64,000 bases of DNA from Paguma larvata (lineage: Eukaryota > Chordata > Mammalia > Carnivora > Viverridae). The DNA lies in the NCBI GenBank assembly GCA_030068075.1, contig CM057826.1, positions 117,204,746 to 117,268,745 of the forward strand, read 5' to 3'. The notes under the pieces are model-generated. The model worked only from the letters and a program-made list of their open reading frames with translations. It had not been told where the DNA came from and searched no databases. Position 1 is the stretch's first letter; every line of letters begins with the position of its first letter. The translations under genes and the position numbers were made by a program. Of the stretch, positions 32,584-63,433 are shown in pieces.

Positions 32584-33801
32584 CATGGTGAGTATACGGT
32601 CTTGGGGCCGAGAGGGAACCACTCGAGGAACCCCAGGGACTGGCTGGGGCTGCCCTGACCTCCGCTCTCTTCCCAGGTGCACGCGCCCGGCTCGCTGCTG
32701 CTGCTGCTGCTGCTGCTGCCCATGCTGGGCGTCTCTGAGACCACACCAGAGCCCTGCGAGGTGGACGACGAAGATGTCCGCTGCTTCTGCAACTTCACGG
32801 ATCCTCAGCCCGACTGGTCCAGCGCTTTCCAGTGTATGGCTGCCGTCGAGGTGGAGATCCACGGCGGCGGCCGCAGCCTGGAACCGTTCCTGAAGAACGC
32901 AGACGCCGACCCGAAGCAGTATGCGGACATGGTCAAGGCTCTGCGCTTGCGGCGCCTCACAGTGGGCTCTGCCCGGGTTCCGGCTGTGCTTCTGGTCGCC
33001 TTCCTGCGTGCGCTCTCGTACTCCCGCCTCAAAGAACTGACGCTCCAGGACCTGGAGGTAACCGGCGCGATGCCGCCGCCGCCTCTGGAAGCCACCGGGC
33101 CAGGGCTCTCCGCCCTCAGTCTCCGGAACGTGTCGTGGGCAACCGGAGGTGACTGGCTCGCGGAACTGCAGCAGTGGCTGAAGCCGGGCCTCAAGGTACT
33201 GAACATTGCGCAAGCACACTCGCTGGCTTTTCCCTGCGCCCGACTCCACACCTTCTCGGCCCTCACCGCCTTAGACCTATCAGACAATCCCGGACTGGGC
33301 GAGCACGGACTGACTGCCGCTCTCTGTCCGCACAAGTTCCCGGCCCTTCGGACTCTAGCTTTACGCAACGCCGGGATGCAGACGCCCAACGGCGTGTGCG
33401 TGGCCATGGCGGCAGCCGGTGTGCAACCCCACAGCCTAGACCTCAGTCACAACTCGCTGCGCGCCACCGCCCCAGGCGCTACTGGATGCGTCTGGCCCAG
33501 CACGCTGAACTCTCTCAACTTGTCATTCGCTGGGCTGGAGCAGGTGCCTAAGGGACTGCCGGCCAAGCTCAGCGTGCTAGATCTTAGGTGCAACAGGCTG
33601 AAAAGAGCGCCGGGGCCAGAAGAGCTGCCCAAGGTGAGTAACCTGACGCTGGACGGGAATCCCTTTATGGACCCTGAAGCCCCCAAATACCAAGAAGACT
33701 CGACGAACTCTGGCGTGGTCCAAGCCTGTGCGCGTTCGGCTCTGGCTGTGGGGATGTCCGGAACCCTCGCGGTGTTTCAAAGGGCGGGGGGCTTCGCTTA
33801 A
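32584..33801 (+). CDS. CD14: CD14, monocyte differentiation antigen / LPS co-receptor
   Basis: The start ATG (32584-32586) is alone at the end of exon 1, followed by a 90-bp intron (32587-32676) and a single large exon 32677-33801: 375 aa, equal to human. CD14 is a GPI-anchored or soluble leucine-rich-repeat protein that takes LPS from LBP and hands it to MD-2/TLR4. Seen: signal peptide with a Leu run, mature N-terminus TTPEPCEVDDEDVRCFCNF with its cysteines, LRR turns (LTALDLSDNPGLG, LRTLALRNAGM, HSLDLSHNSLRA, LNSLNLSFAGLEQV, LSVLDLRCNRL, VSNLTLDGNPF), N-glycosylation sequons NFT, NVS, NLS and NLT, and a hydrophobic GPI-signal-like C-terminus ending GGFA. No lesion. It lies in the same place and orientation relative to TMCO6 as in other mammals. 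Confidence 0.98.
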
Positions 33802-48092: not shown

Positions 48093-51000
48093 ATGGAGTG
48101 TGGAGAGGCAGCAAGCGCAGAGGCTGGTTTGGGCCAGGGCAGCTCAGCGCCCCCAGCCCTCATGGACAACCCCCAGGCCAGGCTGACCGTGGTGGTAGAA
48201 GTTGAGAATGGAAGAAGATCGGGTAAGAAGACCTTACCCATTCACTCTTAGAGGTAACGCAGCCTGGGGGAGCCTCCTGGGAGAGGGGAAGGGCGAGGCC
48301 GGTTTACAGCTTTAGCTGCTGCGGAAGCTTTTTGAGGAAGCTCTGCCTCTCTGGGGCTCTGATCCTGTGCCCGTTAGTATTCTAGGATAGGAAACAGGCC
48401 AAAGTTGAGGGCAGGACTTAGGCCTGAGAGTTGATACACAGTCCATCCTTCTCAGGCCCCGAGGAGACCTGTTGCCCCACGCTGCTGCTGGAGGGGCCCC
48501 AGAGCATCTGCCTGCTACAGCCGGAGACTCTAGACACTCAGGTAGAAATGGGATGGGGTGTGGGTGAGGCCTGGAAGATGGGAGTGACAATGCTGAGCGT
48601 AGTCCTTCCCCGCAGGAACAATGCATCACCTTTGACCGAGTCCTGAGCTCTGATGCTGCTCAGGTAGGCGGTGTTGGAGGGAGACGGAAGGAGGATGGGA
48701 ATCTTCAGGCTTCTGGATCCTGGAGTGCTAAGTGTTTCCCGAGCCCATGGCTCAGGCAGGCTGGGTCAGGGCACCTGAGACCAGGGGATATGCCTGTGTC
48801 CCCTGCAGGAGGCTGAGCAGGAGCTGCTAGCACGAGTCCAGTCCACACTAGGCTTGGTGTCTCGAGGGTACAGTGTGTCCCTACTGCTTCAGGGTCGGGA
48901 AAAAGAGAAGCCTCGGCTTGTACCTCAGGTGAGTCCTGGAGGAGCCACCGGGCATAGGTCTCATGAGGCTCAGGTGTTGTTTTTTCCAGGAGACCTTTGA
49001 GAAACTCCTCTTCCTCTTCCTAGCGGTCTCGGTTCCCCTCCCTGGGATTCCTGTAAAGCACTGATGTTTTCCCAGGGTCAATTTAGGCAGCTACTGAGAG
49101 GTCAGGGAAGGTGGGAGGCTGGAGCCCACGGAGTGAGGTGGTGTGCAAAGATGAAATATCCAGCAAGGTCTACTATTCATAGTTTTTCATAATACTGATA
49201 ACAAACTTGAAAGTTGTGTTTTCGGGGCTTTGTCGAAATGCCCCCAAATCAAAATAACTGCCTCAGAATCTTGTCATAGGCCCCTGCCTTAGGAAACAGC
49301 AGGTCTCACTGAAAATGTCTGCTCATTAGACTGGATCTCTGTGAACCGTGAAGGCTGGGCCTATTTGTGTCTTGGATGCTGTGTCCTGCGTCCGAAGCAC
49401 CCAGAATAGAACTAGGCACAGACTTCACCCTCACGAAGATGTTGAAGGACAGATTCATCCTTTCTCCACCCCTACTGAACCCCTTTCTCCACTTCAGCTG
49501 TTGCAGATGCTGTTTGAGGAAGCTCTGCCCCACAGGGGTCCTGTTCCCGGGTTAGCACCCTTAGCCTGGTGCAGGTGAGACCCTGCGGGGAGGGGACCCC
49601 TGGGAGCCAATGGCGGTGCCGTGGAAAGAGCCTGAGGCTCACAGGCAGCCAGAAGAGACTGAGCCTAGCCTCGTCTGCCACTCACCAGTGTGGGCTTGCC
49701 TCTCCGAGGTCTCCTATTTCCTGCCTGAAATGGCTGAACGTTGGTGCCCTGGTTGACCCATGGAGCCCCAGCGGGAGGGTCATGTGAGACGAAGTCTGGG
49801 AAAGGCTTTTTGTAACTGGTGTTGTGCTTGTGTGATTGCAGCTCGGCTCCAGTGGAAGGACTCGGGACCTGCTCTCTCCAGGGAGAGAAAACCTATCGGT
49901 GCTAGATGTGTCCCCTCTGGGCTTGTGAGTGTCCAGGGCCCAATGGGATCTGACGGTGCTTGCCTTAAGGCAGGACCTGACTCCCCCAAACCCAGCTGTG
50001 GGAGGTTTCTCTCTGCTGCCACGCAGAAGGGAAGCTCTGCGCTTAGGGTTGTGCTCATAACTCCCGCTCACCCTCTTCCCTGCAGCCCCTATCCCCAGTC
50101 CTCTCACTCTTCTTACCTTCTCCATCTACACCTCTTTAACTCAGTCATTGCCATCTGGGTGATGTGAGCACCTCGTTGAGCCGAACTTCAGCTTCTCCAT
50201 CTGTGAGATGTGAGCAATCCTAGCTAGCCTGTTTCCGTCACTGGGCAGATGACAGGAGAAAAAAGATCACGAAGATGAGAGGCTTTCAGGGGATATACTG
50301 AGCTTAGAACCTTGAGGATGGTTCTTATAGGCTCTTGGGACCCCGATGGACTCCCCTTGCAGAGGTTCTGGGGGGCTGGACAGAACCGTGGTGCTTAGGA
50401 GATGATCTCAGCCTCCCCATCCTCCAGGGTGGTGGAAGATGCCAGTGAGGTGGAGGTGTCTGACTCAAGAGCTGCCTCAGAGCTGTACTTCCAGGCTGCA
50501 GGGATGAAGGCAGGTGAGGACAGGAGGGCACCTGTCACCCCCACCACTATCCCTTAGGCTTTTGGGTTCATCCTACCCTCTCCTCTACAGGGCCTGCTCT
50601 CTCCTCACCATCACCATGTCCTGCCCAGGGCCTGACCCACCTGAGGGACCTGGGACCCAGGGTATGTTGCGAGGGGCCTTGAGGATCCTGCAGCTCCCCA
50701 GAGCTCTGTAAGCCTGACGGAATCTTCTGACTGCTTTAGGGAGCGGGATGGAGATGTGGCTGAAGCATGGATGTAGAGACCCAGGGCAGCCTCAGAGTCT
50801 CATTTCCTCACCTCCAACATGGTGAAGGGCTCCTCCTTTAGCATTTCGTAGAAGGCAAGTCTACTGGCAATGAACTCCCCTAGCTTTTAGTAATCTGGGA
50901 TACCTTAATTTCTCACACGTTCTTGAAGGATAGTTTTGCCAGATATGGAATTCTTAGTGGACACACTTTTTTTCCAGCATTATTTTTAGAGAGGAAGAGA

Positions 51001-54000
51001 CCAAGCAGGGGAGAGGGGCAGAGTGAGGGGAGGGGAGAGAGAATCCTAAGCTGTCTCCACACTGATGTGGGTCTCCATCTCACCACCCTGAGATCATGAC
51101 CTGAACCGAAGCAAGAGTTGGACGTTCAACCGACTGAGCCAACTAGGCGCCCCTCCTTCAGCGCTTTCAATATGTCATCTCACTGCCTTCTGGTCTTCGG
51201 AATTTCTTCCTTCCTTCCTTCCTTCCTTCCTTCTCCTTCCTCCTTCCTTCCTTCCTTCCTCCCTCCTTCCTCTTCCTCCCTCCCTTCCCGCCTTCCTCCC
51301 TCCCTTCTCTCCTTCCTTCCTCCTCCTTCCCTCCTTCCTTCCTTCCTTCCCTCCTTCCTTCCTCCTCCCTTCCCTCCTTCCTTCCTTCCTTCCTTCCTTC
51401 CTTCCTTCCTTCCTTCCTTTTTTTAATATTTTATTTTTAAGTAATCTCTACATCCAACAGAGGCTCAAACTCACAACCTGGAGATCAAGAGTCACGTGCT
51501 CTACTGACTGAGTCAGCCAGGCACCCCTGGCCTCCACAATTTCTGATGAGAAATTGGTTTTCATTTTTATGGAGGATCACTCGTATATGACAAGTGGCTT
51601 CTCTTATGCTGTTTTCAAGATTGTCTCTTTGGTTTTTGATGGTTTGATTATAATGTCTCTTGGTATGAATCTCTTTGAGTTTATCCTTCGTAGAATTTGT
51701 TGAGCTTTTTGGATGTGTAGATTCATCTGTTTCATAAATTTGGGGAATTTTTGAGCATTATTTCTTTAAATATTCTTTCTGCCCCCTTTTCTGTCTCTTC
51801 TCCCTCTGAGATTCCCATTCTGCATGCATACACTGCTCCCTTAGGTTCATTTTCCTCCCTTAGGTTCATTTTTTCTTTCTGCATAATTTTATTTGACCTA
51901 TTTTCAACTTTGCTGAGATTCTTTCTTGTCTCTACTCAAATCTGCTCTCTAGGGAATTAATGATTTTTGTTACCATACCTTTCAGCTCCAGAATTTCTAC
52001 TTGGTTCCCATTTTATTTTATTAAGTAAGGTCTACACCCAATGGAGCTCAAACTTACAACCCCAAGATCAAGAGTTGCATGCTCCACTGACTAAGCCAGC
52101 CAGTGCCTCTCTATTTGGTTGTTTTCATAATTTCTGTGCTTCTATTGGTATTTTCTATTCATTGAGACATCATTTTCTCGATTTATTTCTTTTCTGAGCA
52201 TATTTAAGGTAGTTGGATTAAAATTTTTGTGTAGTGAATCCAATGTCTCTGCTTCCTCAGGGACAGTTTCTGTTAAATTTTTTCCCCTGTGGTTGGGCCA
52301 TATGTCTTTATTTGCATGCTGGATATTTTTTTTTTTTGCTAGAAACTGGCCAATTTGAGAATTTTTATTTTTGTAAAGATTATATTCTTCATTGTATTGG
52401 TCTCTTGGATCTCCATTTCTTTTCTTTAGGCTCTGACATTTGGATATGATGATGTGGGAACTTGGAAAAAGAGATTTCCCCATCCCCTCTAGGGTTTACA
52501 TTGTTGCTTGCTATGGGCTGCAACTATCTGTTTGCTTAGTTACCTTTCCAAACACTTTTTGCAAAGACTGTATTCCTTGTGGCCACTGAAGTCTCCATTC
52601 TGTTATCTCAGTGGTTAGTCAGTGACCTGCCATAGAATTCCTTAACCTACTGGGACAAAAACATTTTTTTTAAAGGAAGAAAAAGAGAAAGAAAGACAAA
52701 ACATTAAAAAAAAAAAATCTCCACTTTTCCACAGATTTGCTCTGTGTTGGGTCAGTCCTTGTATGCTTCGCCATTCCATTCATATCTCTGCCTTAGCCTC
52801 GCTTCCTGCTTACACCGAGCTTAAAAAACCAGAGATGAAACCTTGCTGTCTTCTCAGGTCTTTTCTCAGCCTGCATCCTGCCCTGGGCATGTGTGTGTCT
52901 TTCTAGATTCCTCAGTGTACAGGGGAATTTTCCTTATCTCTCTCACAATCTGACTCCTCAACTTTTTTTTCCCAGTCTTTCCATGGATCTATTGTTGGTC
53001 TCAACCATTATTTTTGCTTGTTCTTTCATCTTTCAATGTTTTGAGGGACTGTCATCTAGGATAGCTGCTCTAACCCCATGGAGTTCTGAGGTAAGGGAAA
53101 CCAAAGGAATGCCTTTCTGTCAGTCTTCTGGGGGAAACCCTAGACAGTCAAAACAAGAAACGCAGTTCCTTGGGAGCAAAATCTGCTCTGCTCCCTCCAG
53201 AGCCAAGCGCCCCCACCAGAAATGTGGGCTATTGTCTTCAAGCCCACCTCTGTGCTGGGGAGGAGGTTGGGGTTAGGTTGCGTTAAAACACCACAAAAAT
53301 CTTGACATGTTTAAGTTGCCTTTCTCCTGGGTAAGCATTCATTTGGTTGCTGTAAACCTTTCACAACCTTTCAACCCCAGAGTTCCAGTAAAGTTGATTC
53401 TGACTATTTTTTCCGCATGTTGCTGGAAAAGGACAGATCCTCAGAGTTCCATACTCTGCCGTTTTTGTGGATGTCGCCTTGCTTTGCCATTTTAAATTGG
53501 GTGATTAGGGGCACCTGGCTGGCTTAATTGGTAGGGCATGTGACTCTTGATCTCAGGATTGTGAGTTCAAGCCCCACGTTGGGTGTAGAGCCTACTTAAA
53601 AAACAAATAAATAAAAAATAAATTAGGTGATTAGTCTTCTATTACTGAGGTATAAGAGCTCTTTAAATATTCTGGATAGGAGCGCCTGGGTGGCTCAGTT
53701 CTCACGGTTCGTGAGTTTAAGCCCGCACTGGGTGAGCTCGAGCCCTGCTTCAGGATCTGCCTAGTGCAGAGCCTGCATGGGATTCTCTCTCTCTCCCTGT
53801 CTCTCGCTCTCTCTCTCAAAATCAAACACAAACAAACAAACAAACAAATAAATCTATGTTCTGGATACAAGTCCCTTATCAAACAGACAAATTAAATTGT
53901 GCATTATGAGAATATATTATTCGTGTACTTAAAAAATAATAAAATACAATAAAGATCTATGCAAGGTTGCAAATCTGCCTGGTGGTGCACCAAACTTCTG

Positions 54001-57000
54001 GAAAATAGTCAACCTTTCCATCAGATGTGGTTTACGTCGATTTCTTTCCCCATCCACCAGTGGACACCCCTTTTCTTCCTCTCTCTTTCTGGCAGAGATT
54101 GCCCCCTGCTTCAGGTGTTGGCTGGTAAGGTGATTGGTGAAGAGGTAGAGGGCTCTCTGCCCTGGATCGTGTCACGGCTCCTGGAAGGCAACAACTATAC
54201 TGGTCTTCTTCTTCGCCTGGACCATCAAGGTGGCCTGGGAGAGGGTGCTGGGTTCTTCAGGAAGCTCTGGCATCTAACTTATGCCTGACCCACCCTCTCA
54301 CCAAAACAGCTGAAGCCCTAACCCCAGACCAGAGAGAGCCTGACCTTTGGGGAGGTCAAGATTCAGAAAGGTCCCTGTATGGCTAGGTTGCCAAAGTCTG
54401 GAGAGGCAGGGCTGATAGGAAAAGCAACGCCTTGCCCTTCAGAGGCTTTCAATAGTTTACCAAGCATTGTTACACTAATACCTCTTATTCTTACCACAAC
54501 CCCATGAGACACATCTAACTTAGGGAGGGAAGCGTGATTTATAAATGAGGAAAGGGAAGATCAGAGAAGGGAAAGAACTTGCGTATTTTCATACACTCAT
54601 TAAAAATCAGGCCTCTCTGACATGATATGATGTCAGAGACTTAGGGGAGGCCAAATGGAGGGTATAGATCAAACAAGAATGGCGCGAGGTGATAATTATT
54701 GAGGCTGGGTGATAAGCAGATTGAATTTCCTATACTTTATATATGTTTGAAATTTTCTATAATAAAAGCAAAAAGAAAGAAAAAGCCTTGCTCTCTGTAT
54801 CCGAAATTAATAAGCACACGTTAATTTGGGTAACATAGTCCCAGACCACACACTGTGCCAGGCCCTGTGGAGTGAGGAAAAAAAATAAGGCCAGTTCATG
54901 CTCTTAAGGATAAAGCAGTGAAGGACAATGTTCATCCGTAGGCCAGTTTGGTATCCTTATTAAAGACACAGGCTTTATGTCAGATAGAATTGGGCTTCAG
55001 TTTCAGCTCTGCCACTCACCAGGGAGTTGCTTGACCTCTCTGAGTTTCCTTTGCTTTATCTGGAAAATGTGGGGGTAGGCAGAAGAAATTAGAGTCACTG
55101 CTTCCTCGGAGTGTCGTGTGAATAAAAAAAGGTGATTCACGAAAAGGCTTAGCACAGTGCCATCAAGCCCATGTATAAGCCTGATGGGTGTTAGCTATTT
55201 CTGTACATAGTATTAATAAAAATTAAAAGTATTATAGGCAGTGTGCTTCGGAGTGATTCACCCCAAGTCTCCCCTTACTAGGTGCCTCCTTGAGCTTGCT
55301 CAGAGCTGCTCTGTTGGGGGCCGCAGGAAGGAGGATGCAGGTGAAACAGGTGAGGCCCACCCTGTGGGATGCAGTTGAAGAGGCGCGTGCCCGCCGGGCT
55401 AGCCTGAAGAGCCTGCGTTCCAGCCTTCTTGGGGACACCTTGACAGAAAGTGGGCTCAGCCAGCTGGGAAGGGCGCTGCGAGAGTTGCAGGTAAGCAAGG
55501 TGAGGCCTGGAGGTGCCGAAGAGAGCAGTGGTTGGAGCCTACCTTAAACCCTCTCTCCGTAGGTGGTAAAAGCCCGGAGCCAGTGCCCAGGAAGCCGGAT
55601 ACTCAGAGGTGTCAAAGCCGAGGGCGTGGGGCTCCCAGAACTACAGGTATGCTTTCTGGTTCCACCTATTAGGAGCCCCATTGATGTCTGCCTTCTTTCC
55701 TGTTTACAGAGCTCTATGAGGAGTCCCTTTCTTTGTTCACTAATTTGCTGATTTCCAAACATTTGAGTGACTTCTCACTGTGTCAGGCATAGTGCCACGG
55801 AGGCCCTGGGAGATCCCTGTCCTCATGGAATTTGCAGTCTTCTAGAGAGAAGCAATTATAACACCATGATTAGCGCTCTGAAGGCCTTATCAACACAGGT
55901 TTCGGCGGGGCATCTAAGTTAGTCTTGGCAAGAGAGGAAAGGAACACTTCATGGGGGGTGTTGATTTCTGAAGGAAGTAGCCAGCAAAGAGGAGTGAACA
56001 ACACACATTCCAGGCACAGAAAACAACAGGCCAAGTCTTGGAAGTAAGCAAGAGCTTGTCTCTTTGGGGGACTGCAGGCGGGTCATTTTGCTGTAGAATA
56101 GTTTGAAGAAGAGTCGAGACAGAAGAATTGAAGAGATAAGTAGGGGCCAGGCCATAAAGGCTTTGTAAATTTAATGAGATGTTTGGACTTTGTCTCGAAG
56201 GTCTAGGGGAAGTCATAGAATTATTTTAAGCAGGGAAAACAACATTGCTCACATGTTTCAGGTGAGCAAACTGAGGCTCAGAGGGGGATCTGAGTATCAC
56301 AGGGTCACTGAGATAATCAAAGGCAGTAGAGGTGCAAACATCCAAGTCCTTAGTTAGATTCAATGTCCGTTTAGGATGCATGGCCTCTCCTGTGCAGAAG
56401 GGGGTGCTGTCTTCCAGGATTTGCCAAAGCGTGGCTGGCATGCTGCTCCTATCCACCTTCTGGTCTTTCCTTTTCCCTTTTCATAGTTACTTCTGATTTG
56501 TTTTTACAGTCCTGAGCTTTGGGACTTAGGCATGTAAGCTCCCATTTATTGAGCAACATCTGCCACCGCTTAAAACTTTGGGTGCCTTATCTCGTTTCAT
56601 ACCATTTCATGGTCTCTACAACTTTTTTTGTGTGTGTTTTTTTTTAATGTTTTATTTTTTGTGGGGTGGGCGGGAGAAGCAGAAAGAGAGGCAGACACAG
56701 AATCTGAAGCAGGATCCAGGCTGAGCTGTCAACACGGGGCTCGAACCCAAGAACTGTAGTATCATGACCTGAGCCGAAGTCTGACACTTAACCGACTGAG
56801 CCAAATGGGCGCCCCTCTACAGGTTTTTAAAAATATTTTTTGTTTATTTGCTTTGGTTTTGTTTTTTTGAGAAAGAGAGAGAGCAGGGGAGGGGTAGAGA
56901 AAGAGGGGGACAGAGGATCCGAAGCAAACTCTGTGCTGATAGCCGATGGAGGGCTAGAACTCACCAACTGTGAGATCATGACCTGAACTGAAGTTGGATG

Positions 57001-59233
57001 CTCAACCAACTGAGCCACCCAGGCGCCTCTCTATGACTTTTATCAGTTCTATTTTACAGGTGAGGAAATGGATTCAAATGATTAGACACCTGCCTGAGGT
57101 CATACAGCTGAGGAAAGGAGGGGCTGGGAGCCTGATGTGTCTGATATCAAAGTCCTAAGCCTAACATGTGCTGTCCCAGGAGGAAGGGGATGGAATTCCA
57201 TTCTTAATATATTCTCAGCAGGTGATAGATTCAACAGCAAGCCACAGCCCAGGCTTCCAGGGAGAGCCCAAAGGTGGGTTTGGGGCTGGGGCTTGGGGCA
57301 GAGCTGGGTGTCTTCTCCACCTTTGGTGGGCTTACTTGCATTTTCCTCCAGTGGTAGGAATAACAGCATCTCTAGGACCCGAGGTCCACCGAAAGCATCC
57401 TCCAAGGGACTCTGAGGAACAGGTAACATCTCATGTACCCCAGAACACCTGGAAGCTCTTGGGGGACTGAAGAGTTGCAGAGCGCAGCTAATCTGTCCAC
57501 CGCTTCTGTGCCCCAACATCAGGGACAGATACGGAGCTTCTGACAAAGAGAGGACCTGACGGGCTATGATTCCTAAGAGAGGGCATGGAAAGGTTGTTTT
57601 CCTACTGGGTCACAATAGGAGTATAGGATCCTTAAGCCTCTGTGGCACCTGCTGGCAGAGCCAACACCTCTCCTTTCTCCCATGGCCTCCAAGTCTCTGT
57701 CCAGGCTATGGGCTCTTACAGGCCAGTTAGGCCCCGGATGTGGTTGTAGGAGCAGCCCTGGTAGTGGGGTTCTGTTGGAAAGTTGGGCCCTGTGTCCCAA
57801 GGCTGTGGCACACACGGACTTCTGGCTGAGCCTAGACTAATGCCACCTAGGCCTGTCAGGCTCCAGACGTGGCTCTGCAGTTCTTCTTGGCCCAGGCACG
57901 GAGGAAGAGACTTCAAGAACAGCACCAGATATGGATCCAAGAGGAACTGAAGTGTTTGGAACCGGAGGAGGAAGAGGGGGCAGGTGACCGGGTCAAAGGC
58001 CTGGTGGCTGGAAAGGAGGTGAGGAGGGTCAAGTAGGGGACTTGAGGCTTCTTCTAATTGGTCCTGGCATGGTGCTGTGGGTTGGGATCCAGGCTCAGTC
58101 ACAACAGAATGGGCCATATCTCTCTCATGGTCCTCATAGCTTTATGGGGGACAGGTGTAGCAATTCTCAGGGCTAAGTGCAGTGATGCAGGGAGCTAGGG
58201 GTTTGTGGGAACAAAGAAGAGTGCCTGGCTCAGGCTGGCCAGGAGCAAAGAAGATGGCATTTGGGCTGAGACTTGGAAAACAAATCAGCCAGAGGAATTC
58301 ACTAGACTGAACTCCATGTGGGCAGTTCATACTCATCACATAGGAGCACTGAATAAATACACTTGTTTGTCCAAATTAGGAAACAAAACTTGTGTGCATG
58401 AGGGGATGGGAGGATATGTTCTGAGGACCATAGTTTATGAACAAAGATCCAGGGGGAAGCAATGGCAAAATACCGTCTGGGTATTGCAAATTGTCCACCT
58501 GGTGGGGCCTGGCAGGTACATGGTCAGAGGTGACGCTAGGGACCAGTGTGTGCCATGCCTCTGAATTTGGACTTTACCCCAAGAATGAGAGTGAACCATT
58601 GAAGGGCATGTGTCACCTCAGTTCTGTCCTCACTAGCCATGCGAATTTGGGCAGGTTAGGTCACTTCTCTGATCCAGTTTCCAAATCTAACTACCAGATT
58701 TGGAAAACTAAAATGGCAACCAACTACCTCCCCTGGGTTTCACTGGCTAAAATGAACGAATACACATGAAGTGTTTAGGAACGAAGCCTGGCACACAGGT
58801 GGCACCGAACAAAGAATATGTATTATTACTGAAGGCCTCCGAGGAGAGGCAGAGATGGCGCCGGGAGCAGACGCTACGGAGACTCCAGCTGGAGGCCCTT
58901 CAGGCAGAGCGGGACACTGCAGAGCAGGACCTCGTAGCCCTCTATGACCTGCACGTGCAGGCTGCCCGGGCTCGGACGTGCCATACGCTGCAGGTCAGTG
59001 AGGACAGAAAGCAGGCCTTGAAATGGCTGCAAGGCTGATGGGCTGACAGGCATCTCTGAATCCGGGCACAGGTATTTCGAGCCTGGCGAGGGCTGTGGAA
59101 GGAGCAGGCCGTGACCACAGAGCAACACCACCGCAGCCTGCTGGCTGGTATCCTGCAAGACACGCTCCGACTGGCCACGCAGAACCAGGAGCTCCAAGCC
59201 CAGAACCAGCAGCTTCGGCAGGGTGTAGACTAG
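48093..59233 (+). CDS. Unnamed 16-exon gene: degenerate kinesin-motor-like protein with coiled-coil tail
   Basis: Exons: 48093-48222, 48456-48541, 48616-48663, 48809-48928, 49498-49574, 49853-49924, 50428-50513, 50629-50707, 54096-54229, 55282-55490, 55563-55646, 57180-57273, 57352-57422, 57851-58018, 58835-58993, 59072-59233; 1779 nt, about 592 aa, stop TAG. The start has a good context (gccATGG); an in-frame ATG at 48162 is an alternative. Kinesin-like order: LTVVVEVEN, ITFDRVLSSDAAQEAEQELL, GYSVSLLLQG at the P-loop position, RDLLSPGRENLSVLDVSPLG, EVEVSDSRAASELYFQAAG, then SLPWIVSRLLEGNNYTGLLL before a neck-like segment. P-loop and switch II consensus are absent. The tail is Arg/Glu/Gln-rich helix ending NQELQAQNQQLRQGVD. 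The exon 8 start is uncertain. I do not recognise a named gene here. Confidence 0.7.
50975..51153 (-). mobile_element. Can-SINE, reverse
   Basis: 'tttttagagaggaagagacc' to 'gactgagccaactaggcgcc'. Confidence 0.8.
51207..51420. repeat. (TTCC)n / CCTT-rich microsatellite
   Basis: About 214 bp of nearly pure TTCC units with CTCC variants, next to the T tail of a reverse SINE, so probably expanded from that tail. Confidence 0.95.
51421..51529 (-). mobile_element. Short older Can-SINE, reverse
   Basis: 'tttttaagtaatctctacat' to 'actgagtcagccaggcaccc'. Confidence 0.82.
52012..52112 (-). mobile_element. Short older Can-SINE, reverse
   Basis: 'tttattttattaagtaaggt' to 'actaagccagccagtgcctc'; flanked by tacttggtt / tatttggtt. 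Confidence 0.78.
53510..53618 (+). mobile_element. Short older Can-SINE, forward
   Basis: 'ggggcacctggctggcttaa' to 'ccccacgttgggtgtagagc' and an AAATA tail, flanked by a ttgggtgattag / ttaggtgattag repeat. Confidence 0.85.
53681..53853 (+). mobile_element. Can-SINE, forward, with internal deletion
   Basis: 'gcgcctgggtggctcagttc' jumps directly to 'tcacggttcgtgagttt', skipping about 40 nt of the head; flanked by ttctggata repeats. Confidence 0.85.
54460..54620 (+). repeat. MIR fragment
   Basis: 'cttaccacaaccccatgaga', 'ataaatgaggaaagggaag', 'gaaagaacttgcgta' and 'aaaaatcaggcctctctga' in MIR order. Confidence 0.6.
56641..56814 (-). mobile_element. Can-SINE, reverse, shortened body
   Basis: 'tttaatgttttattttttgt' to 'gactgagccaaatgggcgcc'. 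Confidence 0.88.
56832..57029 (-). mobile_element. Can-SINE, reverse
   Basis: 'aatattttttgtttatttgc' to 'gagccacccaggcgcctctc'; flanked by ctctaca / ctctatga. Confidence 0.88.
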
Positions 59234-61117: not shown

Positions 61118-62092
61118 CTAGCGGCTGCCGTAGTACAGGCGCACAGCCAGGCCAATGAGCAGCGTGGCCAGGAAGAAGGCAGCTGTGAGCTGCAGCCGCA
61201 GCAAGGCTGCTGAGAGCACGGCGTTGACCACCAGGGAGCAGGACACAACAAAGAGGCGCGTGATGCTGCTGCCGTGCTTCATGACCGCTGACATGAGCAG
61301 ACCACTTAGTGCCTGGCTCAGCACCACAAGCGCTGCCCAACCAGAGAAACCCTCTAGGAGGCCTGGGCCAGGGCCGCCCCCTGCGTGCAGACCTAGATTC
61401 AGAAGCACACCAAAAGTGTAGAGGAAGAGGTTCTGAAGTGCTAGGGGCAGCCGCTGTCGCTTCATGAGCAGCTCTGTGTACACGGACGACAGGCCCGAGA
61501 TGACACAGTATAAGATGAGAAGCAGCAGTCCCAGTGGAGTGATATGCAGGGGCATGGGGCCAGCAGCAGCTGCTGGAGGGGGCCCAGGGAGGGTGCTTCC
61601 AGGGTCTTGGAGGCCACCGGCTGCATAGCAGGCCCCTGCTGCCATCAGCAGCAGCAGTGCCAAGCCCTGGCGTGCAGAAAGGCGGTGCCGGAGACAGAGG
61701 CAGTAGAACAGGGCCGTGCTTCCGATCTTGAGATTGCTCAGTACCTGGTAGGTGCTGGGATCCATGTAACGTTGAAGATAGATCACCAGGTTGTTGTTAG
61801 CGCCGTAGAGAAGGGCCGATAGCGCAAAGGGGGCGGCCTGGCGCCACGGAGGGGCCCCCTGGGGCCAAGCTTGGCAGCCCACCAACAGGGAGAAGGCGCA
61901 CAACAGTAGCTTGGTCAGCTCAGTCAGCAGCACAGCTGAGGAGGGCCGGAAGGGCACTCTGCCGTTCACATGGCACAGTGCCAGCAAGGGGGCATGGGCA
62001 CCATACATGGCAGTGGACAGGAGTAGCATCAGGGTCCAGCGGGCCTGCCTGGGACGGCCCAGGCCTGGCATACCCCCGTCCTCTACACTCAT
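61118..62092 (-). CDS. SLC35A4: SLC35A4, nucleotide-sugar-transporter-family protein
   Basis: An uninterrupted frame of 975 nt encodes 324 aa, start MSVEDGGMPGLGRPRQARWT at 62092, stop TAG 61120-61118. Length and start match human. The SLC35A family holds Golgi/ER antiporters of nucleotide-activated sugars; A4 has been linked to CDP-ribitol. About ten hydrophobic helices are visible, e.g. LLTELTKLLLCAFSLLVGC, GLLLLILYCVISGLSSVYTE and AAFFLATLLIGLAVRLYYGS at the C-terminus. The motif YLQRYMDPSTYQVLSNLKIG is typical of the family. The mRNA also carries a long upstream ORF (the microprotein entry), and the two frames are about 430 nt apart in the same exon. Confidence 0.97.
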   Translation of the reverse strand: MSVEDGGMPGLGRPRQARWTLMLLLSTAMYGAHAPLLALCHVNGRVPFRPSSAVLLTELTKLLLCAFSLLVGCQAWPQGAPPWRQAAPFALSALLYGANNNLVIYLQRYMDPSTYQVLSNLKIGSTALFYCLCLRHRLSARQGLALLLLMAAGACYAAGGLQDPGSTLPGPPPAAAAGPMPLHITPLGLLLLILYCVISGLSSVYTELLMKRQRLPLALQNLFLYTFGVLLNLGLHAGGGPGPGLLEGFSGWAALVVLSQALSGLLMSAVMKHGSSITRLFVVSCSLVVNAVLSAALLRLQLTAAFFLATLLIGLAVRLYYGSR

Positions 62093-62519
62093 GCCCAAAC
62101 CAGACCCTGGGTGGCCTGTGTAGCTAGCAAGGGGACAGCGGGAATTATAACAAGTTTGGGGAAAACCAGTACGGAGCCGGCTCGCAGGAGGGAGGAGCCG
62201 TGGTACATTGCTAGAGAGAATACTGAAAACCAGAGTCAGCTGCAAACTCCACAGTCGAGGCTGGAAGAGGAAGGGGCCGGTGGCCCTAAAAGCCACAGTC
62301 TTGGGGCCAGTCCCATGGGGTTAAGGAGGGGCGTCCAGACTACTGGCTGACAAGCCACTGTTCACCTTTTGCGAGAAGGAGAGCAAGGATGAAGGCTGTG
62401 GAAAAGTTGCAGATAGCAAAAGGGCGATGGCTGGAGAAGCCAGGTATGGTGTCTGTGGTTGAAAGGCCTCTGCCTGCAGACCCGAGATGGTCATCCTTCC
62501 TCCCCCATGGGATCCAGAG

Positions 62520-63433
62520 CTAGTCGGGCCCCTTGCGCAATGACCGAAGATAGTCCCTCAACGTCTTCTCCACATTGGGCACGGCATATGCCTGAGCTGC
62601 GTAGATGCCCGTGCAGGTACCCACGGCAAAGCCCAATACTGCTGATGCCCTCAGTTTGGCCACCACATAGCCGGCTAAGAAGCCCTTGAGGAATGGGGAG
62701 GACAAGAGCGAGCCATCCTGTGGAGGAAAATGCAGAAGGAAACTCAGCGAGGGTCTCTCTTCTCTACCCACGAGCTACTCAAGCTGGCCTGAGATCATCC
62801 CACCACCTCCTCCTTACTCTGGAAAGCTGCGGTATTCTCTCCAAAGAAGATTCTGGAGGCGGAAAAAGAACCTAGGGGTCCTGACCACACAATCTCAGAA
62901 CGCTGGGGTTAGAAGGCTCCAACCGCAGAACCCTACCACCGCAAAGCTACAGAGATGTCCCTGAGGAATTGGACTCCTGCCTGCTTCTCCAAACTCACTC
63001 CCTAGCAGGCTCTCCCATTACTGGAGCCAAATTAAACTACTTTCTCCCTCCTTTTCATCAAGATACCTCCCACTATAAGAGCTTTGCATATGTCGTTTCA
63101 TCGGCCTGAAATGATCTCTCCTCCCCACTTTACCTAGTTACCTCCTATTTAAGATACCAGTTCAAGTATCATTTTCTTAGAGAAACTTTCCTTAGGGTCA
63201 CAGAAAACAGGCCTTCAACAACCATTTGCTGAATAAGTCTCTACCACCCATTCGAACACCTATTGGGTGGCTTCATTAAGCCTGAGGTCAGGGGTTGGGG
63301 GGTGGGAAAGAGTGGTGGGCAGGTGCAGATTTACCTGGCCCACACCGCTGTTGACTTCGTCTTCCACACGCTGCTGCAGGCGTTCCAGCTGGTTCTTGAG
63401 AAATGCCAGGTCCTTAAGCTTGGGCAGAGAATC
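62520..63433 (-). CDS. SLC35A4: SLC35A4 upstream-ORF microprotein (SLC35A4-MP), exons 2-3; first exon outside window
   Basis: Exons 63433-63335 (DSLPKLKDLAFLKNQLERLQ ... NSGVGQ) and 62717-62520 (DGSLLSSPFLKGFLAGYVVA ... LRSLRKGPD, stop TAG) join in phase and give 98 of the expected 103 residues. The missing MADDK start exon should lie beyond 64000. This conserved uORF of the SLC35A4 transcript makes a mitochondrial inner-membrane microprotein. An amphipathic N-terminal helix precedes a transmembrane segment (FLAGYVVAKLRASAVLGFAV) and a short C-terminus. The near-perfect match to the human sequence I recall, against freely varying flanks, supports real translation. Confidence 0.93.
63085..63235. 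repeat. L2 LINE 3'-end fragment in SLC35A4 intron
   Basis: 'catcggcctgaaatgatctc', 'ttcaagtatcattttcttag', 'gaaactttccttagg' follow the L2 3' end order. Confidence 0.55.

Follow-up and report, generated by a model that had tools for sequence, protein, structure and literature searches.

A predicted 16-exon E230025N22 relative between CD14 and SLC35A4 in Paguma larvata: a likely kinesin descendant lacking ATP-site motifs, with its frame broken twice in this copy

What kind of gene lies between CD14 and SLC35A4 in the carnivore Paguma larvata, and is it still intact in this animal? In the window, by which we mean the whole stretch of 64,000 nucleotides that was analysed, an earlier note had described an unrecognised gene in which a kinesin motor domain is followed by a coiled-coil tail. 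Our reading, which we hold to be fairly probable, is that this gene is a 16-exon relative of E230025N22, a likely descendant of the kinesins that has lost the ATP-site motifs and would act as a non-motile binding protein, and that its frame is broken twice here. The exons were re-derived from the sequence. Fifteen junctions with GT-AG borders link the ATG at 48093 to the TAG at 59233 on the + strand, and the borders at all 15 junctions are of the ordinary mammalian type. The earlier note was right about the borders at 15/15 predicted junctions of the 16-exon model, and each protein block that it quoted was found, in the same order and on the + strand. The neighbours and the predicted exons are as follows.

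32659..33801, + strand: CD14 main open frame, left neighbour (open frame and protein match)
48093..48222, + strand: predicted exon 1, ATG start and N-terminal part of the head (donor GATCGG|gtaag, alignment to relatives)
48456..48541, + strand: predicted exon 2 (splice borders, alignment to relatives)
48616..48663, + strand: predicted exon 3, ITFDRVL block (splice borders, alignment to relatives)
48809..48928, + strand: predicted exon 4, GYSVSLLLQG, at the place of the kinesin P-loop (borders, alignment)
49498..49574, + strand: predicted exon 5, 77 nt, frame shifted by one base (borders, alignment)
49842..49924, + strand: predicted exon 6, RDLLSPG block (splice borders, alignment to relatives)
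50428..50513, + strand: predicted exon 7, LVVEDASEVEVSDS block, frame shifted by one base near the 3' end (borders, alignment)
50591..50707, + strand: predicted exon 8, ACSLLTITMSC ... LRILQLPRAL, switch I / switch II region (borders, alignment)
54096..54229, + strand: predicted exon 9, CPLLQVLAG ... LPWIVSRLLEGNN, region of alpha4-L12-alpha5 (borders, alignment)
55282..55490, + strand: predicted exon 10, where the conserved head ends (borders, alignment, per-exon conservation)
55563..55646, + strand: predicted exon 11, variable linker (borders, per-exon conservation)
57219..57273, + strand: predicted exon 12, variable linker (borders, per-exon conservation)
57352..57422, + strand: predicted exon 13, variable linker (borders, per-exon conservation)
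57851..58018, + strand: predicted exon 14, conserved tail (borders, alignment, per-exon conservation)
58835..58993, + strand: predicted exon 15, conserved tail (splice borders, alignment to relatives)
59072..59233, + strand: predicted exon 16, TAG stop (splice borders, alignment to relatives)
61121..62320, - strand: open frame that contains SLC35A4, neighbour on the right (gene name assigned from the protein)

The 16-exon model sits between CD14 and the right-hand open frame, which we take to be SLC35A4. It was found once: a six-frame protein search of the animal's own genome gave 12 exon matches, every one at 48093-59233, with no second copy or haplotig against which the frame could be compared. 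For exon 15 there is also an upstream acceptor at 58799, which adds 12 codons (58799-58834) and with them VAPNKEYVLLLK; a stretch matching this extension is carried by a Lynx (P0007) and a macaque (P0115) model. Many database models lack exon 8 (50591-50707), which about 37 of 66 rows in an alignment of relatives (alignment A2) cover; either the exon is skipped or the annotation has a gap. A simple repeat of CTTCC type (window positions 51200-51420) lies within the long intron that follows exon 8. On the right, an open frame on the - strand (62520-62774) ends ...AQAYAVPNVEKTLRDYLRSLRKGPD and presumably represents the second coding exon for the microprotein of the SLC35A4 upstream ORF.

Does the model give an open reading frame? 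About 592 amino acids with all junctions in phase had been claimed; the length could not be reproduced, and the junctions of this copy are not all in phase. A plain join of the 16 exons is 1789 nt long (1 mod 3) and meets a premature stop at codon 175, since exon 5 and exon 7 each depart by one base from the frame of all 12 felid and hyena rows aligned.

To find relatives, the joined protein with X at both frame breaks was used as query. This search for homologues in mammals, which the earlier note had proposed, returned 197 matches with E <= 0.001, and the rows described here are the best 120 of them. The top relative is a Neofelis entry (1095 bits, 97% of the query), and homology to the E230025N22Rik family is full-length. 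With relatives at this level, far beyond chance, and neighbours flanking the exons, the proposal of a protein gene in the CD14-SLC35A4 interval is borne out. The joined protein is 83-89% identical to the felid, hyena and seal rows, with 85-89% for four felid entries and 88% for Crocuta, and 59% identical to a Mus spicilegus entry over 82% of the query. The felid and Crocuta values make a feliform outside the felids the likely source, so that the felid affiliation supposed in the earlier note comes close but is probably not exact. The best 120 of the 197 come from Carnivora, ruminants, pig, camels, whales, donkey and bats; from hedgehog, moles, shrew, tree shrew, lemurs, monkeys, rodents and rabbit; and from armadillo, elephant shrew, tenrec and aardvark. 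Among the matches listed, nearly all bear the label 'uncharacterized', 'hypothetical' or 'unnamed' protein. The name RIKEN cDNA E230025N22 gene is given to two entries from rodents and 'Kinesin motor domain-containing' to two from whales, and a rabbit entry is labelled 'plectin', which is wrong judged by its match.

Since the relatives are listed as uncharacterized or RIKEN cDNA, the gene has been catalogued already, with its function not known. It can hardly be called unrecognised when relatives are listed across many placental orders and two rodents carry the RIKEN name. Judged by these protein matches, the window gene is a member of the placental family catalogued as E230025N22 or LOC entries, without known function. 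E230025N22Rik and the placental LOC proteins belong to the same family over the whole length. The unbroken reading frame of the family is not found in this copy: it has two frame breaks that are missing from the aligned feliform members. A literature search under the RIKEN name or two LOC numbers found no functional study of E230025N22. One paper names it as a gene whose dN/dS exceeds 1 in hares (PMC6065068), and another includes it in a table of expression for the luminal epithelium of the mouse uterus (PMC8967306). No ape protein is among the best 120 of 188 matches to a macaque query, in a database that may not hold ape entries. The source tag 'lgn', which we take to mean read-assembled contigs, occurs in none of the best 120 of the 197 relatives, so that transcript support was not seen among them, and many CD14 relatives carry it; its lack among the 120 fits either low expression or merely many introns. 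CD14 in the window (32659-33801, +) is 99% identical to a protein cluster of that source (P0137, 30 members); its next matches listed are at most 84% identical, and there is no felid-named CD14 among the best 120 rows.

Where did the head of this family come from? By profile comparison it is likely to be a kinesin descendant. The order of blocks had been read as that of a kinesin motor domain, and this reading is supported as regards descent (profile-profile score 63.9), but not as regards Pfam significance or a working motor. In the HMMER comparison that had been suggested, the joined protein scores 12.8 bits against Pfam PF00225 and stays under the curated cut-off of 29.3. The same model matches 9/66 relatives at E <= 1 with a best E of 7.3e-4, and an unrelated model, LSM14, matches 10/66 with a best E of 0.053. 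The best PDB sequence match is a kinesin and is not significant, with E of 0.1 for a single protein and 0.29 for a 66-row profile. A kinesin profile was then built from the same genome: 80 of 129 kinesin exon matches were joined by neighbourhood into 37 groups, 7 groups of fewer than 60 residues were left out, and the long frames L001-L003 were added, giving 33 sequences. Compared with this profile by hhalign, the family head scores 63.9 (probability 95.1, P 3e-8) over 222 columns, spanning profile positions 74-310. The controls score 16.3 (reversed profile), 20.8 (best of 200 column shuffles) and 17.0 (family tail). Without the two KIF3 rows in the profile the score falls to 40.6 over 63 columns. 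An HMM made from the same 33 sequences gives at most 9.6 bits over 136 relatives and at most 1.2 over their shuffles. Among the kinesin frames of genome G000, those on contigs C1120, C1228 and C1485 share the same five stops (2 TGA, 2 TAG, 1 TAA) and are probably one kinesin pseudogene in several copies.

Might the resemblance be due to chance or composition, the head not being derived from a kinesin at all? The uniformly weak Pfam and PDB sequence searches would agree with that, as would the first hhalign comparison, in which common descent was found with 33 kinesins and not with three (P 0.17 for three kinesins only, not significant). Comparisons with 20 single kinesins are likewise unconvincing, the best score being 24.5 at P ~0.014. 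Yet with the broad profile the score reaches three times the maximum among the 200 column shuffles, and family and kinesins stay collinear across the landmark strands: FTFD, GFNG/GYSV, the RDLL block, the SSRSH strand, the switch II strand and the RDSKLTR/SLPW block. We regard chance as a very improbable source of this resemblance.

Likely descent from a kinesin raises the question of which one. Exon 4 has its 3' border after PQ, in phase 0, and exons of two kinesin-3 genes in the animal's genome, one KIF1B-like and one KIF1C-like, end at the same point, but the intron before that exon is placed elsewhere in the KIF1 genes than in the window gene, and the KIF1A-like exon has no GT after PQ in this assembly; these subfamily names are our own assignments. 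The highest single-kinesin scores belong to C10:66949129 and C5:136101096, presumably KIF27-like and KIF7-like. No nearest kinesin family could be named: the single-kinesin scores, all weak, do not tell the families apart, and the intron positions agree in part.

Could such a head still be a motor? Walker A (GxxxxGK[ST]), S[SA]RSH and D[LF]AGxE each occur in 0/136 proteins, these being the listed matches of two relative searches with isoforms of one species counted apart. Walker A is also found in 0/66 rows of the alignment of relatives, in which the P-loop region is covered in 65 rows and the switch region in about 37; P-loop, switch I and switch II were each looked for as marks of membership and none was found. 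The profile alignment skips 11 kinesin positions that hold the P-loop, and further kinesin positions are missing, 16 around L11/alpha4 and 10 before L12. In the RDSKLTR stretch, basic residues of the kinesins face non-basic ones in the family head in the same alignment register. The names of kinesin elements (alpha4, alpha5, L11, L12) are placed on the alignment by our own assumption. Because the ATP-site motifs are lacking in all 136 proteins, motor function of the family appears very unlikely.

The residues that stand in their place are conserved: L273 and W275 are present in 66/66 rows and G119 in 65/65 (numbering of the seal protein P0002). The share of columns conserved at 90% or more is 41-60% for exons 4-10 and 40-46% for exons 14-16, with 0-18% for exons 11-13 and 12-25% for exons 1-3. 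The poor conservation of exons 1-3, the supposed start of the head, was counted against the kinesin-head reading. From this pattern we infer that a loose linker joins the head to a conserved tail, an arrangement that selection may have maintained in placentals. As to the tail, a coiled coil had been proposed. A heptad score, which is a crude measure of our own and not a standard coiled-coil predictor, peaks at 0.52 in the whole seal protein, compared with 0.68 for the top 5% of 200 shuffles. By this crude score no coiled coil shows, and the proposed coiled-coil tail is not supported.

What could a kinesin head do without an ATP site? By the profile comparison the head (exons 1-10) follows a kinesin motor domain collinearly, beginning at the FTFD strand and reaching past alpha5. 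With no nucleotide site and a reduced microtubule face it might offer a platform to which other proteins bind, and exons 14-16, the conserved tail, might anchor or pair it. A binding role like that of KIF26A can be suggested by analogy. KIF26A is described as a kinesin without motor activity that modulates signalling (PMC10585591). The comparison with KIF26A and KIF26B concerns the way of working, namely a non-motor kinesin in signalling, and sequence membership is no part of the likeness; in contrast to this pair, the alignment of the window family skips the P-loop positions. Another comparison is with Vik1 and Cik1, the partners of the yeast kinesin-14 Kar3, which carry a kinesin-like fold that lacks a nucleotide site, set on a helical tail, and act through their partner. 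These are yeast proteins, likened to the window family by description, and such a fold would be the trait in common.

There is a further question, whether the gene is still working in this animal. Each frame break was placed at a short G run by comparison with protein rows, and two internal acceptors offer hypothetical shorter exons:

49549..49551, + strand: GGG run at the frame break of exon 5 (exon sequence against felid protein rows)
50501..50503, + strand: GGG run at the frame break of exon 7 (exon sequence against feliform protein rows)
49536..49574, + strand: hypothetical short exon 5 from an internal acceptor; restores the frame only together with the short exon 8
50629..50707, + strand: hypothetical short exon 8 from an internal acceptor; restores the frame only together with the short exon 5

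Opposite the exon 5 break the felid rows read VPGVSTLSL and Crocuta reads VPGVTTLSL; opposite the exon 7 break, felids and Crocuta have AAGDEGR, with AAGDESR in a single row. The form at both sites is unbroken in 12/12 feliform rows of the alignment of database proteins, which are 11 felid entries (Felis catus twice) and one Crocuta, compared as proteins and not as DNA. Frameshifts in other felids had been named beforehand as evidence that would count against the gene; at the two sites there are none in 11/11 felid entries. Beyond the two breaks, no other internal stop or loss of a splice border was found in the 16 exons.

The gene in this animal may have been lost recently or wrongly read, or its frame may be rescued. 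If both single-base breaks are true mutations, the copy would be a young pseudogene of this lineage in which the full protein is not made, a reading to which we give somewhat less than half of our belief. That the breaks are missing from all 12 aligned feliform rows agrees with it, as do the stop at codon 175 of the plain join, the failure of either internal acceptor alone to remove an early stop, and the lack of a second gene copy in the genome search. The CD14 and SLC35A4 frames stay open through 18 G/C runs of at least 4, so the local sequence is not generally ragged; the 99% identity of CD14 to a database protein points the same way, though that protein, of source 'lgn', is perhaps not independent of this assembly. 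The remainder of the 16 exons, free of internal stops and lost borders, speaks against decay, and so do the replacements. Over 301 sites the lineage-specific replacements number 12 in the window, 4 in felids and 17 in Crocuta, and over 417 sites 20 in the window and 11 in felids, where sites were excluded if the caniform outgroups or the felids disagreed internally or if letters were missing. By two-sided binomial test, p is 0.077 against felids and 0.46 against Crocuta for the 301 sites, and 0.15 against felids for the 417. Replacements are thus not clearly in excess, and an old pseudogene is disfavoured.

The same lack of a clear acceleration, together with the intact start, splice borders and remaining frame, would also be expected if both breaks were errors of the assembly consensus in short G runs and the gene itself were intact. 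A missing base in a G run is a common type of consensus error, and each break fits a run that is one G short, as inferred from the felid proteins. Against this stand the 18 runs in the two neighbour frames, which leave them open, and another 16 G/C runs of at least 4 within the gene's own exons, which have no effect on the frame; we consider consensus error possible but doubtful. A last explanation is that the breaks are real and are spliced around. The acceptors 49536 and 50629 together open the whole join, to 1713 nt with one terminal stop and 570 aa, in a protein missing part of the head, while an early stop remains with 49536 alone or 50629 alone; a macaque database model (P0075) likewise links exon 7 to mid-exon 8. 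However, there are 5 AGs in exon 5 and 6 in exon 8, so an in-frame acceptor is likely to occur by chance, and the short exon 5 is found in no other row of the relatives' alignment. Such a rescue seems unlikely.

What does the likely non-motile kinesin descendant mean for the family? A more far-reaching scenario, which we put forward tentatively and with more doubt than belief, is that a kinesin head without an ATP site has been selected across placentals as a binding module. It would form an undescribed class of non-motor kinesins, decaying in some lineages that include this feliform and perhaps the apes. The family lies under the cut-off of the kinesin motor-domain model, and surveys built on that model would therefore omit it. 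The predicted gene also lends itself to the study of gene loss among closely related carnivores. If the family does consist of binding proteins on a kinesin scaffold, it would show that in mammals, and not in the KIF26 pair alone, the fold can persist after the motor is lost.
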